Virus record (IMG/VR): IMGVR_UViG_3300036759_000011
Coordinates: 1 to 56,120 of that record
Strand: one strand, 5' to 3'
DNA: 56,120 nt
From: a virus
In this document: piece by piece, positions 7,168 through 20,217 of the stretch
How the letters are laid out: each line of letters opens with the position of its first letter
How positions within the stretch are numbered: position 1 is the stretch's first letter
Notes under the pieces: model-generated
What the model saw: only the letters and a program-made list of their open reading frames with translations
What the model was told of the DNA's origin: nothing
Databases searched by the model: none
Position numbers and translations under genes: made by a program

Positions 7168-7352
7168 TGAAATTCACCGAGCGCGTAACTTTTAGGTTGA
7201 TTCAAATGCCATGCTGTGGGCATGCACTTTGTTGGGTGAATCCCAGATTCCCTAACTTCTGTCCGCAATGTGGTAATCACATCTTCACAAAAGTTAAGCA
7301 AGGTGTATTGTTGACCGATACAGAAGCGACCCTAAACTACGAGGGGGATTGA
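7167..7352 (+). CDS. Small zinc-ribbon protein (61 aa)
   Basis: TAATG-coupled start at 7167. Ligands: MPCCGHALCW near residue 15-23 and CPQCGNH near residue 36-42, a rubredoxin-like zinc knuckle set. It is one of a cluster of very small zinc proteins encoded in the early region (2989, 7352, 8851, 15513, 55735), which usually act as nucleic-acid or protein adaptors. Specific role unknown. Confidence 0.65.
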   Translation: MKFTERVTFRLIQMPCCGHALCWVNPRFPNFCPQCGNHIFTKVKQGVLLTDTEATLNYEGD

Positions 7353-7666
7353 TGGGACTCACCAAGGAAGAGATAGATAGACTTCTTGCGAAGAAAGCGT
7401 CACGCACTCGTGGTGGGGGTCGCAAAAAGAACGAGCCTAATCTTGATGATCGTACATATCAGACGTGGTTCAAGATGATGCACAAGCTCATTGATGATGA
7501 TACGGGAGAGATGCTGAACTGTGATAATGAGCAGTGTATCGATCCACGCGATCGTACTAACGGTCAGACCGTTATTAAGATTAAGGGTCAATGGATGTGT
7601 AGATATTGCTTCATTGATGGGTGGCTACTAGAAAACCCAGCACAGCAGGAACTTCCTGCCACATGA
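7352..7666 (+). CDS. Zinc protein with shared N-terminal MGLTKEEIDRLLAKK motif
   Basis: I start at ATG 7352 (GAGGGGG upstream; TTG 7349 is an alternative). The first 15 residues MGLTKEEIDRLLAKK are identical to those of the otherwise different protein at 16096. A basic linker (RTRGGGRKK) follows, then a domain with CDNEQC and CRYC ligands separated by a charged loop. The identical opening suggests a functional tag or docking helix copied between genes. Ends ATGA-coupled to the next gene. Confidence 0.7.
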   Translation: MGLTKEEIDRLLAKKASRTRGGGRKKNEPNLDDRTYQTWFKMMHKLIDDDTGEMLNCDNEQCIDPRDRTNGQTVIKIKGQWMCRYCFIDGWLLENPAQQELPAT

Positions 7667-8136: not shown

Positions 8137-8463
8137 ATGGCTGGTTTGGATCCCAACGAGGTTAAGCGTCTTTACGCTAACCGTCGTCAGAAGGGCCTTT
8201 ACACGCAGCTTCTCTCTGAGCTTATCGGCTCTGGTGAGAATGGTGCTAACGTGAAGGAGAATTGGCCCCAGCTTGCGGAGAAGCCTGCTTCTACGCTTAA
8301 GCAGGGTTTCGAGAATGCTAAGCAGAAGAAGGACGCTCCCGAGGGTTCGGAGAACATCGATGTTATCGTGGATGGTGAGAATGTGTTTCTCATCAACACG
8401 GCAACGTTCGGTGAGGATGGTTCGGAGACTGAGGCTGAGCCTGAGGCTGCTGTCGCCCCGTAA
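8137..8463 (+). CDS. Early protein, paralogue of the product at 574
   Basis: A 108-residue protein behind GAAAGGAAG, expected to be highly expressed from the promoter at 7933. It aligns with the product at 574-882 (GL...VKRLYANRRQKGLY, NWPQL, ASTLKQGFENAKQ, NVFLI). An acidic tail (DGSETEAEPEAAVAP), absent from the paralogue, follows. The codon pattern is dominated by GAG, AAG and CTT-type codons, consistent with high expression. Function unknown. Confidence 0.75.
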   Translation: MAGLDPNEVKRLYANRRQKGLYTQLLSELIGSGENGANVKENWPQLAEKPASTLKQGFENAKQKKDAPEGSENIDVIVDGENVFLINTATFGEDGSETEAEPEAAVAP

Positions 8464-13639: not shown

Positions 13640-14119
13640 ATGGCTCTGACACGGGAAGAGATCATTAGAATCTATGATGCCAGAAAAGCAAAGAGAAAGA
13701 CCTACAGTAAATCGATCATCGAGGTTGCCTTTGCTATCAAGAATCTAGTTGATGGCCCCGATCCGTTTCATGGATCAATCAGAGACATTGCAATAGCTCT
13801 CGATATTCCGTATCAGAGAGTAAGTGCAGCGCTAACCATGACAAGAACTACCTTCTGGATTAATAACGTAGGGTGGAGCTTTCCTTACAGTAAAGGAAAT
13901 TCCGAGAGACTCTGGTTCACAATCGATAGAGACGAGCATGTTCCTGAAGCTCTCCGTAGAATCGATTACAGAGTCAGCCATCTAGTTGGTTGGCTTAAGA
14001 GAGTAGAAGCACAGAATAGACTCTGTGGCAAGTTGAACGAGTCTCCGCTCATGGAGAGGAAGATCACAAGCGCAGCAATGAATATTAAACGGGCCATCGA
14101 GGATCTGGAAATGGCTTAG
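13640..14119 (+). CDS. HTH protein with MALTREEI N-terminal motif
   Basis: ATG 13640 follows AGGAGG, 3 bases after the preceding stop. Residues 1-20 (MALTREEIIRIYDARKAKRK) match the shared N-terminal motif of the products at 7352 and 16096. A helix-turn-helix follows (GSIRDIAIALDIPYQRVSAA) with an aromatic wing (TFWINNVGWSFPYSKG), then long helices (VSHLVGWLKRVEAQNRL). Probably a DNA-binding regulator or replication accessory factor co-transcribed with the HTH gene at 12900. Confidence 0.7.
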   Translation: MALTREEIIRIYDARKAKRKTYSKSIIEVAFAIKNLVDGPDPFHGSIRDIAIALDIPYQRVSAALTMTRTTFWINNVGWSFPYSKGNSERLWFTIDRDEHVPEALRRIDYRVSHLVGWLKRVEAQNRLCGKLNESPLMERKITSAAMNIKRAIEDLEMA

Positions 14120-15668: not shown

Positions 15669-16109
15669 ATGCCTAGTGAAAAAGGTTACAGATCAACCTT
15701 CGATCCGTTAGTAGTTAACACGGCGGATCTGAAAATAGTCCTCGAAAGGTTCATCATAGATTTCAAAGCTAGGCACGATGGCAAGGTCAGAATTCACAAG
15801 AGAGTTTACGGTTCGGTTGGTGGATACGAAGAGAAAGGATGGGAAGATAGACTAGATATATCTTCTCAAGAAGGTTACGTAAGCTGGATATGTAGAGAAA
15901 CGGGAGTGTCACCAAGAAGATTGTGGGGCATTCTGCATCTACAATCAAAGCACACTAGTTTGGATTTGGCAGATCAAATCTTGCAGGGATTGGAAATGAC
16001 ATACGTTTATCATAACGGTGAGGTGCCCGTCATTCCCAATCCCCGCTGGAATCAGGAGAGATGGATCAAGTGGATGAGCACCAGAGGCTTGTGCGATGGG
16101 TCTGACTAA
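15669..16109 (+). CDS. HTH-containing protein (146 aa)
   Basis: ATG 15669 after AGAGGAT. A basic N-terminal half (FKARHDGKVRIHKRVYG) precedes WICRETGVSPRRLWGILHLQ and TSLDLADQILQGLEM, which looks like a two-part HTH unit as in phage WhiB-independent regulators and CopG-unrelated HTH proteins. The C-terminus is Pro/Trp-rich (VIPNPRWNQERWIKWM). Probably DNA-binding; the specific role is unknown. Confidence 0.65.
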   Translation: MPSEKGYRSTFDPLVVNTADLKIVLERFIIDFKARHDGKVRIHKRVYGSVGGYEEKGWEDRLDISSQEGYVSWICRETGVSPRRLWGILHLQSKHTSLDLADQILQGLEMTYVYHNGEVPVIPNPRWNQERWIKWMSTRGLCDGSD

Positions 16110-16521
16110 AGAAGAAATCGATAGACTCCTAGCCAAGAAACGGGAGAAAGAACGTGGGAAAACTCCTCACCAGCATACGGAATATCGTTCGCAACAAAAA
16201 GGCCCACTCCGATGGTACGAACACTCAATGCCGTGTTCTAACCATGCAGGTTACAGAGGTGGAGGGTGTGGTTCACCGACATATTGTAGAGTCGAAGGAG
16301 CGCCGTTGTGTATGATGCATGCGCTTCGGAGACTTAATGAACTAGTATTGGAGATGGATAAAAATGCCCAGGCGCGCATATTCCAAAGGGAGCAACAAAG
16401 CCCGAGCATCTATGAAGAAGCAATACGGCGCCAAGAAGGGGACACAAGTATTCTACGCAACAGCGAACAAACACGGGAAGGGGAAAACACGAGCAGCCAA
16501 AGCCAACTCGGTCTTTTCTAA
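16096..16521 (+). CDS. Zinc protein with MGLTKEEIDRLLAKK start and QLGLF end
   Basis: A 141-residue protein. Residues 1-15 are identical to those of the product at 7352. The central part has Cys/His ligands (PCSNHAGY, GGGCGSPTYC, PLCMMHAL). The last 50 residues are low-complexity (EGDTSILRNSEQTREGENTS) and are overprinted by another gene in the +1 frame. The final five residues QLGLF fit the bacterial sliding-clamp (DnaN) binding consensus QL-[SD]-LF, suggesting recruitment to the host clamp. Confidence 0.7.
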   Translation: MGLTKEEIDRLLAKKREKERGKTPHQHTEYRSQQKGPLRWYEHSMPCSNHAGYRGGGCGSPTYCRVEGAPLCMMHALRRLNELVLEMDKNAQARIFQREQQSPSIYEEAIRRQEGDTSILRNSEQTREGENTSSQSQLGLF

Positions 16522-16537
16522 GGGAAGAAAACGTTAA
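16364..16537 (+). CDS. Small very basic protein overprinted on the gene at 16096
   Basis: ATG 16364 to TAA 16537 (57 residues), +1 frame relative to the gene it overlaps for 158 bases; GGAG lies 10 bases upstream. The sequence RASMKKQYGAKKGTQVFYAT then ANKHGKGKTR is a recognisable phage motif: small proteins containing MKK-x-YG-x-KKG-x-x-VFYAT occur in many phage genomes. Lys/Arg content is extreme, so nucleic-acid or virion-DNA association is likely. This is an overlooked gene by length, with strong motif support. Confidence 0.7.
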   Translation: MPRRAYSKGSNKARASMKKQYGAKKGTQVFYATANKHGKGKTRAAKANSVFSKGRKR

Positions 16538-16662
16538 GTGATCTATGGAATGTACTAGACCGTCTAACGGATATTTACCCGGCGGCGGTGCTCCTAGTAA
16601 TAGTGCTAATGATAATTATAGCATGGGACATACGACGCCGCAGATAGAGAGGTTGGAATCTA

Positions 16663-17493
16663 ATGACTCAAGTCGATGATACTGACGATCTTCGTGAGTC
16701 GCTGCAAGTTCAGTCGCCTGATGAAGTGGTTGATTGGCTCAACGTCCTGATCTACGGTGATCCCGGTGCTGGTAAAACATGGCTAGCTGGAACAGCAGAA
16801 GATCATCCAGACACTAACCCTGTGCTGGTTTTGGACGTGGAGGGTGGCGTTACTACAATTCGGCACAGGAAGGTAGATGTAATTCCTGTTCGGTCTATGC
16901 CACAAGTCGAGAAGATTTATAACAAGCTTTATCACTCTATCGAGAATGGCAGGATCTACTACAGAACAGTCGTACTGGACTCACTCACTGAGCTTGCTGA
17001 TCTAGATATGCGTTTCATTATGAAGGAAGCGTATGAGCGCAACCCTGAGAAGGTAGATATTGATGTACCGTCTCAGCGTGAGTGGGGAAAGAACAGAAGC
17101 CACATCAGAAGGATTGTTCGCGCATTCCGCGATCTTCCTTGTCATGTGATTATGACTGCTTCTGTAGCTACCATGCAGGAGGAAGGCCAGCCCACAAGAT
17201 ACTTCCCCGGATTCGCTGGCAAGCTTCGGACTGAAGTGCCGGGATTCATGGATATTGTGGGATACCTCTACTCTGAAAATAAAACGGGGGTGATTAATCG
17301 CAAGCTTCAAGTGGTCGGTACACGCAGAGTACAGGCTAAGGATAGAACTTCCACGCTTGGCGGAAGTTTGGAGAATACCACTATCTCCGAAATTTGGAAT
17401 CACATCATTAGTGGTACACTTAATCCATCAGCGGTGCATTCCGATGACAGCGAAACGTTGCCAGAGGAGTCCATTGAAGCGACCGCCGCTTAG
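16663..17493 (+). CDS. Sak4-like RecA-fold recombinase ATPase
   Basis: A 276-residue ATPase. Walker A is GDPGAGKT (residues 32-39), Walker B is RTVVLDSLTEL (about 101-111), and a later basic loop QREWGKNRSHIRRIVRAFRD and HVIMTASV follow the AAA_24/Sak4 layout. Sak4 proteins bind single-stranded DNA and promote annealing or strand exchange in phage recombination, usually with a cognate SSB and an exonuclease. Those are exactly the flanking genes here (Cas4-like at 14260, ssDNA-binding at 17516). The C-terminus is acidic (DDSETLPEESIEATAA). Confidence 0.88.
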   Translation: MTQVDDTDDLRESLQVQSPDEVVDWLNVLIYGDPGAGKTWLAGTAEDHPDTNPVLVLDVEGGVTTIRHRKVDVIPVRSMPQVEKIYNKLYHSIENGRIYYRTVVLDSLTELADLDMRFIMKEAYERNPEKVDIDVPSQREWGKNRSHIRRIVRAFRDLPCHVIMTASVATMQEEGQPTRYFPGFAGKLRTEVPGFMDIVGYLYSENKTGVINRKLQVVGTRRVQAKDRTSTLGGSLENTTISEIWNHIISGTLNPSAVHSDDSETLPEESIEATAA

Positions 17494-18081: not shown

Positions 18082-20217
18082 TTGATTGCTAAGAGTGAAT
18101 TACGCAAGCAATTCTTTGAGCTACTGTTTAAGGATTACGAGGGCTTTATCTGTTTCGCCACATCTGAAGCAGCAGCGCCGAAAGTAACTTTCAGGCAGCA
18201 CTTCTTCAAGTGGCCTACAGACCACACAAGAGTAGAAGAGTTTTTGCTGCATCATGAGCAGAGATATAATCTCTACTTCTGTATTAATCTCCTCTCCAAG
18301 ATGGAGAGGCGTAAAGAATTCTGTCTGGAATCAGACATAGTTTGGGCTGATCTAGATGAGAAGAATCCAGAAGAAATCGAGGACATTCCCCCACAAATCG
18401 TCATTCAGTCATCTCCTGGCAGATGGCAAGCCTTCTGGCGTCTAAGTTCGAGAATCCCACCATACGAGGCAGAAGAATATTCTAGGCGCGTTGCTTATAA
18501 ATACAAGGCTGATTCGTCGGGCTGGGATCTAACCCAGCTTTTTCGTGTTCCGTTTACTAGAAATCTCAAGTATACAGACAAGCCACACATTACAGTTGCT
18601 AGAGCTTTTAGCGCCGAAGCGCCAGCTAAACTCTTTGAGCTTCTCCCGACAACCATCCACAAGAATCAGGATGGCTCGGAGATGCCCGATGCTTCCAAAG
18701 ATCCTACATCAATCATTGAGAAGCATAAGCCACTTCTACGTCAGACAGCCTTTGAGGCTCTCTTCACACAGGAGCTAGAACTAGACGCAGATTGGTCAAA
18801 GACTCTATGGAGACTCATCCACGAATGTTTCAAGGTGGGGATGACAGCAGAAGAAGTTTTTACTGTCGTTCGTCATGCTTCCTGCAATAAATACGAGCGT
18901 GATGGTAGGCCAGTTGAGCATCTATGGAGAGAGGTCATCAAAGCCAGCAAGAGTTACGTTGGTGGCGAACCCTTGCCAGAGATGTTGGTTATGCCTCAAC
19001 TTGTTTCTGATCCCCAAACCGAAACATTCGTAGATGAGTACATGGATTGGGCCTGTCGAGCTACGGACGCCCCAAGAATCTTCCATGAGCTATGTGCATT
19101 CATAGCTCTGAGTGCTATAGTATCATGCTCGGTTAGACTGGAAACCAATGCAGGGCCAATCGTTCCAAATCTGTGGGCTTTGATTCTTGGTGAGTCTACG
19201 ATCAGCAGAAAGACCACATCTATGCGTTTGATAGTCGATATTCTTCAAACGTTAGATAAAGAGCTAGTGGTAGCCACAGACGGTACAGCAGAGGGAATCC
19301 TCACTGGTCTGACGAACAGACCCAATCGCACTTCGATCTTCTGGAAAGATGAAGTGTCTGGATTCTTTGAGGCTATGAATCGTAGAGACTACATGTCGGG
19401 TATGCAAGAAACACTTGCAGCCTTGTATGATGTGCCTCCCTGGTTCAAGAGGACTCTACGCAAAGAAACATTTATCATTGAATCTCCCGCATTCATAGTG
19501 CTGGCCGGTGGAGTCGTTGATAGAGTTTATGAGTCAGTCACAGAAGGATACGTCTTGTCCGGATTTTTACCAAGATTTCTGGTAGTAACGGGAGAAGCGG
19601 AAGAACGTAGACCGATGGGGCCACCAACAGAAGAAGGAATGAACAAGAAAGCCAAGATCGTAGCTAAGCTAGCAGATATGTATGAGCATTATGCTTCTGA
19701 TGTGACCATGAAGATTGCTGGACAGAAAGTTCAGATGCCACCGAGGATTAGGGCTCAACTCACTAAAGAAGCTTGGGCTAGAAACACAGAGATAGAAAAC
19801 ACAATGATTGAAGCCGCGAAGGATTCCCTCGTAAGGAACCTCGCTCTACCGACATTTGAAAGAATGCACCGTAGTCTACTCAAAATGGGAGTAATATTAG
19901 CTGCATCCAGGCAGGTACCTATTGACGATCGTATCGAAGTAGAAGATCAGGATATAGTGAATGCGGCTCATTACGTCCAGATTTGGGGTAACTGCTCAAT
20001 TCAGTTGATTATGAACGCCGGAAAGAAACAATCGGAAAAGCTCCTAGATAAACTCCATAGATCTATCGAGAACCATCCTGGAATTTTGCGCGGTCAGCTT
20101 ATGAGACACTTCAAGCTGTCTAAGCGAGAAGCTACGGAATATCTGGATACTCTCGAAGATCGTGGTATGGTAAGGAGAGAAACCCGTGGTACCGGATCGG
20201 CATACTGGGTAACATGA
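18082..20217 (+). CDS. Primase-polymerase/DUF3987-type helicase fusion
   Basis: A 711-residue replication protein starting at TTG 18082 behind GGAGG. The N-terminal third resembles an archaeo-eukaryotic primase: VWADLDEKNP (two Asp near residues 90 and 92), then IVIQSSPGRWQAFWRLS and a DLTQLFRVPFTRN segment. The central and C-terminal part is a DUF3987-like ATPase with GESTISRKTT (about 370-379) as a modified P-loop (Arg before Lys-Thr), then IFWKDEVSGFFEAM, and AFIVLAGGV. A winged helix (GQLMRHFKLSKREATEYLDT) ends it. It probably primes and unwinds at the replication fork. ATGA-coupled to the kinase. Confidence 0.8.
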   Translation: MIAKSELRKQFFELLFKDYEGFICFATSEAAAPKVTFRQHFFKWPTDHTRVEEFLLHHEQRYNLYFCINLLSKMERRKEFCLESDIVWADLDEKNPEEIEDIPPQIVIQSSPGRWQAFWRLSSRIPPYEAEEYSRRVAYKYKADSSGWDLTQLFRVPFTRNLKYTDKPHITVARAFSAEAPAKLFELLPTTIHKNQDGSEMPDASKDPTSIIEKHKPLLRQTAFEALFTQELELDADWSKTLWRLIHECFKVGMTAEEVFTVVRHASCNKYERDGRPVEHLWREVIKASKSYVGGEPLPEMLVMPQLVSDPQTETFVDEYMDWACRATDAPRIFHELCAFIALSAIVSCSVRLETNAGPIVPNLWALILGESTISRKTTSMRLIVDILQTLDKELVVATDGTAEGILTGLTNRPNRTSIFWKDEVSGFFEAMNRRDYMSGMQETLAALYDVPPWFKRTLRKETFIIESPAFIVLAGGVVDRVYESVTEGYVLSGFLPRFLVVTGEAEERRPMGPPTEEGMNKKAKIVAKLADMYEHYASDVTMKIAGQKVQMPPRIRAQLTKEAWARNTEIENTMIEAAKDSLVRNLALPTFERMHRSLLKMGVILAASRQVPIDDRIEVEDQDIVNAAHYVQIWGNCSIQLIMNAGKKQSEKLLDKLHRSIENHPGILRGQLMRHFKLSKREATEYLDTLEDRGMVRRETRGTGSAYWVT

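Follow-up and report, generated by a model that had tools for sequence, protein, structure and literature searches.

A QLGLF terminus on a phage zinc-ribbon-like protein looks like the alternative-frame shadow of an older overlapping gene

Introduction

Does a small phage protein ending in QLGLF carry a working ligand of the host sliding clamp, or has the pentapeptide reached its C-terminus by another route? The question arises from a locus in the IMG/VR virus record IMGVR_UViG_3300036759_000011, of which positions 1 to 56,120 form the window, the whole stretch of DNA analysed here (56,120 nucleotides). The original prediction, made from the sequence alone, described a 57-residue basic gene overprinted on the end of an upstream gene, whose new tail would thereby have gained a possible host-targeting motif. 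QLGLF is the groove-binding motif of E. coli DNA polymerase II (residues 779-783; PMC5731819, PMC3716654). Its mutation to QLGAA shortens clamp binding (PMC5731819), and the complex of the Pol II peptide with the clamp is discussed in PMC3716654. Loss of a stop codon is a standard origin of same-strand overlaps (PMC3887535, PMC2268670).

Results

Two small genes share 158 bp in different frames

Both open reading frames are present as originally described. The 141-aa ORF (16096-16521, + strand) ends in TSSQSQLGLF followed by TAA, and the 57-aa basic ORF (16364-16537, + strand) reads MPRRAYSKGSNKARASMKKQYGAKKGTQVFYATANKHGKGKTRAAKANSVFSKGRKR before a TAA of its own, with 158 bp common to the two genes on the same strand in different frames. 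The upstream protein is referred to below as ZR, for zinc-ribbon-like. The features of the locus are as follows.

15669..16109, + strand: 146-aa gene upstream of ZR, with relatives near basic genes in L008, L009, L187 and L190
16096..16521, + strand: 141-aa ORF, putative zinc-ribbon-like protein (ZR) with an extended tail (ORF, relatives, alignment)
16096..16362, + strand: ZR head, residues 1-89, conserved, with invariant C47, C58, C72 and H75 and the N-terminal helix LTKEEIDRLLAKK (alignments, AlphaFold2)
16350-16353, + strand: GGAG, possible ribosome-binding site of the basic gene (read directly)
16359-16361, + strand: out-of-frame TAA two bases 5' of the basic ATG, candidate relic of the ancestral ZR stop
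16363..16518, + strand: ZR tail, residues 90-141, lineage-specific, the basic gene read in an alternative frame (homologues lack it)
16364..16537, + strand: 57-aa basic protein of a widespread phage family, MPxxxYxKGxxKxxxxMKKxYGxKKGxxVFYAxANK (family scans, alignment)
16502..16516, + strand: basic-gene codons for the conserved ANSVF, which give QLGLF when frame-shifted (codon reading)
16504..16518, + strand: QLGLF codons CAA CTC GGT CTT TTC at the extreme C-terminus of ZR, before the stop TAA at 16519-16521
16663..17493, + strand: Sak4-like AAA ATPase, constant neighbour of ZR genes (phrog_124, 2.3e-44; AAA_24, 7.8e-25)

The same region is carried by a second contig, IMGVR_UViG_3300036841_000030 (23,425 bp), in which the overlap is identical and the compared stretches differ from the window by a single mismatch, at 18378, outside the overlap. 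Owing to this near-identity, the contig is not independent evidence.

The upstream gene belongs to a Sak4-adjacent family

Sak4 relatives were used as an anchor, and a profile of the ZR head was then searched around them, revealing about 40 distinct phage sequences with a small ZR gene, which in most cases lies shortly before Sak4. Alignment of 28 members demonstrated that C47, C58, C72 and H75 are invariant and that an N-terminal L-[TS]-x-[EQ]-[EQ]-I helix and a GPLRW segment are conserved; the ZR of the window has all four invariant residues and lies upstream of Sak4, as family members do. By inference from this pattern, ZR is a zinc-ribbon-like protein. Searches of Pfam, PHROG and PDB yielded no relative of ZR, a single Pfam match in the family-wide scan being judged a chance hit. 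Fold searches and PDB sequence searches likewise gave nothing significant, and searches against named phages found no DNA match for the region and no protein match for the 141-aa ORF.

The window's ZR shares with this unnamed CCCH zinc-ribbon family the LTxEEIxxLL helix, the GPLRW segment, the C-C-C-H arrangement and the pre-Sak4 position, but it alone has the extra 52-residue tail, and its first two cysteines are 10 residues apart rather than 4 as in most relatives. AlphaFold2 modelling gave the head pLDDT values mostly of 84-97, with one block near 62 (residues 21-30), while in the tail pLDDT drops to 55-60 and the last 20 residues are without secondary structure; the tail is thus predicted to be exposed and flexible, with its terminal peptide accessible. 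The genes flanking ZR encode a PD-(D/E)XK exonuclease (phrog_1218), an SSB-like DUF669 protein, a primase and a DNA polymerase, the last being the phage's own (phrog_17, 2.7e-101).

Four ORFs of the window that otherwise encode different small proteins (7349-7666, 8137-8463, 13640-14119 and 16096-16521) have a common N-terminal helix module, seen as MGLTKEEIDRLLAKK twice (81% identical over 21 aa) and also as MAGLDPNEVKRLYANRR and MALTREEIIRIYDARKAK. This module is perhaps a common docking peptide.

The basic gene is the older partner

Relatives of the 57-aa protein were found in 173 stretches of viral contigs in a first scan and in 363 in a profile-based scan. Among 26 aligned diverse members the core reads MP...K...M.K.YG.KKG..VFYA..N, with M1, P2, M17, Y21, G22, K25, V29, F30, A32 and N35 invariant. 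The basic ORF is a real gene, beyond chance, and so is the ZR ORF over residues 1-89. All ten residues are present in the window's protein, which is 74-76% identical to the L004 and L007 members and clearly belongs to this unnamed family, MP-x-(SKY)-KG-x-K-(7)-YG-x-KKG-x-x-VFYA-x-x-N. A profile scan of bacteria and archaea, one genome per species, found the family on only four MAG contigs; it is almost confined to viral contigs. Neither the basic ORF nor the 141-aa ORF matched Pfam, PHROG or NCBIfam, and a family-wide scan of basic members returned one match of one member, to phrog_17747 (function unknown). The protein search against named phages gave three weak matches for the basic ORF, and in one named phage record the gene sits between the terminase and the head-to-tail connector. 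At many other loci the upstream ORF stops 1-14 nt from the basic start. The window differs in this respect: many relatives adjoin structural genes or have neighbours within 1-14 nt, whereas the window's copy lies beside Sak4 and ZR, within an upstream frame that has been extended.

Relatives of the 146-aa gene (15669-16109) recur beside basic genes in L008, L009, L187 and L190, phages without a nearby ZR or Sak4, which suggests that the 146-aa gene and the basic gene travel together. Two basic members, L188:2376 and L235:2501, have an isoleucine codon at the usual ATG start position, where a non-canonical start is possible.

In line with the original prediction, the 141-aa protein has a new tail: no homologue has residues 90-141, which occur only in this phage and the one near-identical contig. 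Close ZR relatives end at about residue 85-95 (L085, NDLLVAIEYDV-stop; L084, MLVAKGVLS-stop; L088, LVELGVEQ-stop), at the point where the basic gene starts in the window, its ATG falling at codon 90 of the 141-aa ORF; other ZR members have longer tails that are unrelated to the window's. The proposed direction of overprinting, however, has to be reversed. The basic frame has 173+ relatives and the tail frame none outside this phage, the basic gene being the old and widespread one over which ZR was lengthened, and the new part is a tail extension of ZR, not a new gene. Only one other ZR locus, L084, has a basic gene, and there it lies upstream of ZR. Since the basic gene is on the other side of ZR in L084 and is present in only 3 of the 24 longer records searched, it moves independently of ZR, and the pairing arose independently.

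The TAA at 16359-16361 lies two bases before the basic ATG, so that one inserted or deleted base close to the 3' end of ZR would have sufficed to lose the old stop, which may have been removed in this way. The arrangement resembles 3' extension after stop-codon loss as described (PMC3887535, PMC2268670), with co-directional genes in different frames and an upstream gene that is longer than its close relatives and stops inside the downstream one; there is no fundamental difference, save that the 158 bp cover almost all of a small downstream gene.

Immediately beyond the QLGLF stop, the ZR frame (16522-16644) continues with codons for a membrane-helix-like stretch, GKKTLSDLWNVLDRLTDIYPAAVLLVIVLMIIIAWDIRRRR, with no ATG, GTG or TTG start before its hydrophobic part. 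In L085 the corresponding position, between ZR and Sak4, is taken by a small membrane-type ORF. The stretch may be a neighbour gene whose start disappeared upon arrival of the basic gene.

The alternative frame is probably open for reasons of codon usage

In the relative frame used here, a stop arises only where a T-ending codon precedes AA, AG or GA. Within the window's genes, 1.9% of 52-codon stretches are open in that frame. T-ending codons make up 8.8% of the basic gene, compared with 31% in the window's genes, where only 0.17% of 57-codon stretches have so few, and full read-through would be about 0.1% likely under the window's own codon usage. By itself this lack of stops (0.1%) would point to selection on the alternative frame, but it does not amount to proof, as T is scarce at harmless sites and in relatives too. 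At the stop-forming sites of the basic gene, T is seen at 0 of 12 against 5.1 expected (P about 0.001), and at harmless sites at 3 of 25 against 9.9 expected; with both classes affected, the depletion is not specific to keeping a second frame open. Basic-gene relatives in other phages are T-poor as well (T3 0.08-0.17), and in most of them no recognisable upstream gene occupies that frame. When basic genes were simulated with subfamily codon usage, the frame was open throughout in 11%, and among 99 basic genes openness follows local G+C (0/51 below 45%, 12/22 above 55%). The basic gene probably brought its open alternative frame along.

QLGLF reads as a shadow of ANSVF

The basic frame GCC AAC TCG GTC TTT TCT AAG encodes ANSVFSK, and the shifted reading of the same bases is CAA CTC GGT CTT TTC TAA, that is, QLGLF-stop. 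In the closest basic subfamily ANS[VI][FY] is conserved. With serine encoded by TCN, A-N-S-V-F-S-K limits the shifted frame to [QKE*]-[LF]-[GRSC]-[LFIV]-[LF]-[QKE*], so that a clamp-like pentamer is built in. Shadows in the same frame of relatives include ELGLF (L187), KLRLF (L188), QLRLQ (L007), KFCLL (L004), KFRLL (L190) and KFNLL (L189), with QQHLQ in another aligned relative; they occur also where no upstream gene uses the frame, and most such relatives are without a recognisable one. In simulated synonymous basic genes, an exact QL[SDGANC]LF-stop was obtained at a frequency of 1.15e-4 (~0.01%), the 11% open-frame factor included, and QLxLF anywhere in the tail in about 0.6% given an open frame. 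The exact terminal QLGLF is a modest coincidence, and for that reason a functional tail keeps a small share of probability. Judged from the codons, QLGLF looks like an accidental by-product of the basic gene's conserved sequence.

L187 (2350-2692) has a 110-aa ORF with a CxxC motif whose overlap with the basic gene there uses the window's relative frame; this ORF has ELGLF at the position that matches QLGLF. This locus was considered as a second case of extension and set aside, as its upstream ORF has no independent relative of its head in the collection.

Functional readings of the tail

The most durable alternative, though a very unlikely one, is that the tail is a working beta-clamp ligand, with QLGLF tethering ZR to the groove of host DnaN and either recruiting the clamp to phage recombination or replication intermediates or competing with host polymerases. 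The pentapeptide does fit the QL[SD]LF-type clamp consensus, as originally predicted; it is identical to the Pol II motif of E. coli, where the change to QLGAA shortens clamp binding (PMC5731819), and it is terminal, in a tail predicted to be disordered, on a protein that sits in a replication module. However, QLGLF is absent from 39 of 39 distinct ZR homologues, none of which has a clamp-like C-terminal end (the one automatic motif flag among ZR relatives, in L166, lies in a conserved helix). The window's pentamer is not conserved in its family and occurs only as the shadow of another gene's conserved motif, near-consensus shadows being found also in relatives that show no recognisable gene in the frame concerned. 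The phage moreover encodes its own DNA polymerase, and the overlap shows no variation in its sole other copy. The proposed host-targeting motif therefore comes down to a string match, which the ANSV[FY] codons explain, and the QLGLF tail is probably not a host-targeting device. A synthetic tail peptide might well bind DnaN in vitro, which would not show importance to the phage.

Selection of the tail for a use other than clamp binding, such as translational coupling in which ribosomes that continue from ZR into the basic gene raise its expression or stability, is likewise improbable in our estimate. Same-strand overlaps are common in phages, and L187 offers an overlap with equal frame relation, between an unrelated CxxC ORF (110 aa) and the basic gene there; on the other hand, the many loci at which the upstream ORF ends 1-14 nt from the basic start make a 158-bp overlap unneeded for coupling, and the L187 upstream ORF is without an independent relative in the collection. 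It is least credible, and to be discounted almost entirely, that the 141-aa frame is the product of a sequencing or assembly error, an indel that hides a true stop, the TAA at 16359-16361 in another frame: this TAA does lie two bases 5' of the basic ATG, at the end point of relatives, but the second contig has the same sequence with no mismatch here, even though the two contigs may share a sample or reads.

Discussion

Combining the comparative, codon-usage and structural analyses, we consider it highly probable that an ordinary loss of the stop codon at the end of ZR created a same-strand overlap with an incidental motif and a tail that is tolerated rather than selected. Two unrelated small phage genes lie side by side, ZR from the Sak4/SSB/primase recombination-replication module and an older gene for the basic protein. 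The ancestral ZR stop, which in close relatives stands within about 5-10 codons of the conserved C-x-x-H helix, would have been lost through an indel or through the junction formed when the basic gene arrived. The ZR frame now runs through the basic gene in an alternative frame that was already likely to be open because the basic subfamily rarely ends codons in T, and the 52-residue tail is the alternative-frame translation of a Lys/Arg/Ala-rich gene. Its QLGLF end comes from the shifted ANSVF codons, with the T-AA stop formed by the Ser-Lys codons. Most likely, ZR still serves the Sak4 recombination module as a zinc-binding accessory, its ancestral role, the basic protein has a nucleic-acid- or particle-associated role, and the tail is tolerated, not selected.

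Against this stop-loss explanation, an exact Pol II-type motif immediately before the stop is rare in simulations, and a tail predicted to be exposed and flexible, in a replication-gene setting, would suit a clamp-binding role. The overlap allele offers no sequence diversity, its sole other copy being identical here. There is a slim chance that a one-step stop loss in the ZR gene produced a flexible tail with a functional host-clamp-binding peptide, which was then kept. If true, a short linear motif would have been born from the conserved codons of another protein, and binding of the tail to DnaN would make this a one-step birth of a host-interaction motif.

The locus demonstrates that a short linear motif may look convincing, and may even copy a studied one exactly, and yet be the alternative-frame shadow of a conserved neighbouring gene; a simple check for motif calls is to read the same frame in relatives that are without the upstream gene. 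It also documents two unnamed families of small phage proteins, the phage-restricted basic YG-KKG-VFYA family and the Sak4-adjacent CCCH zinc-ribbon family.
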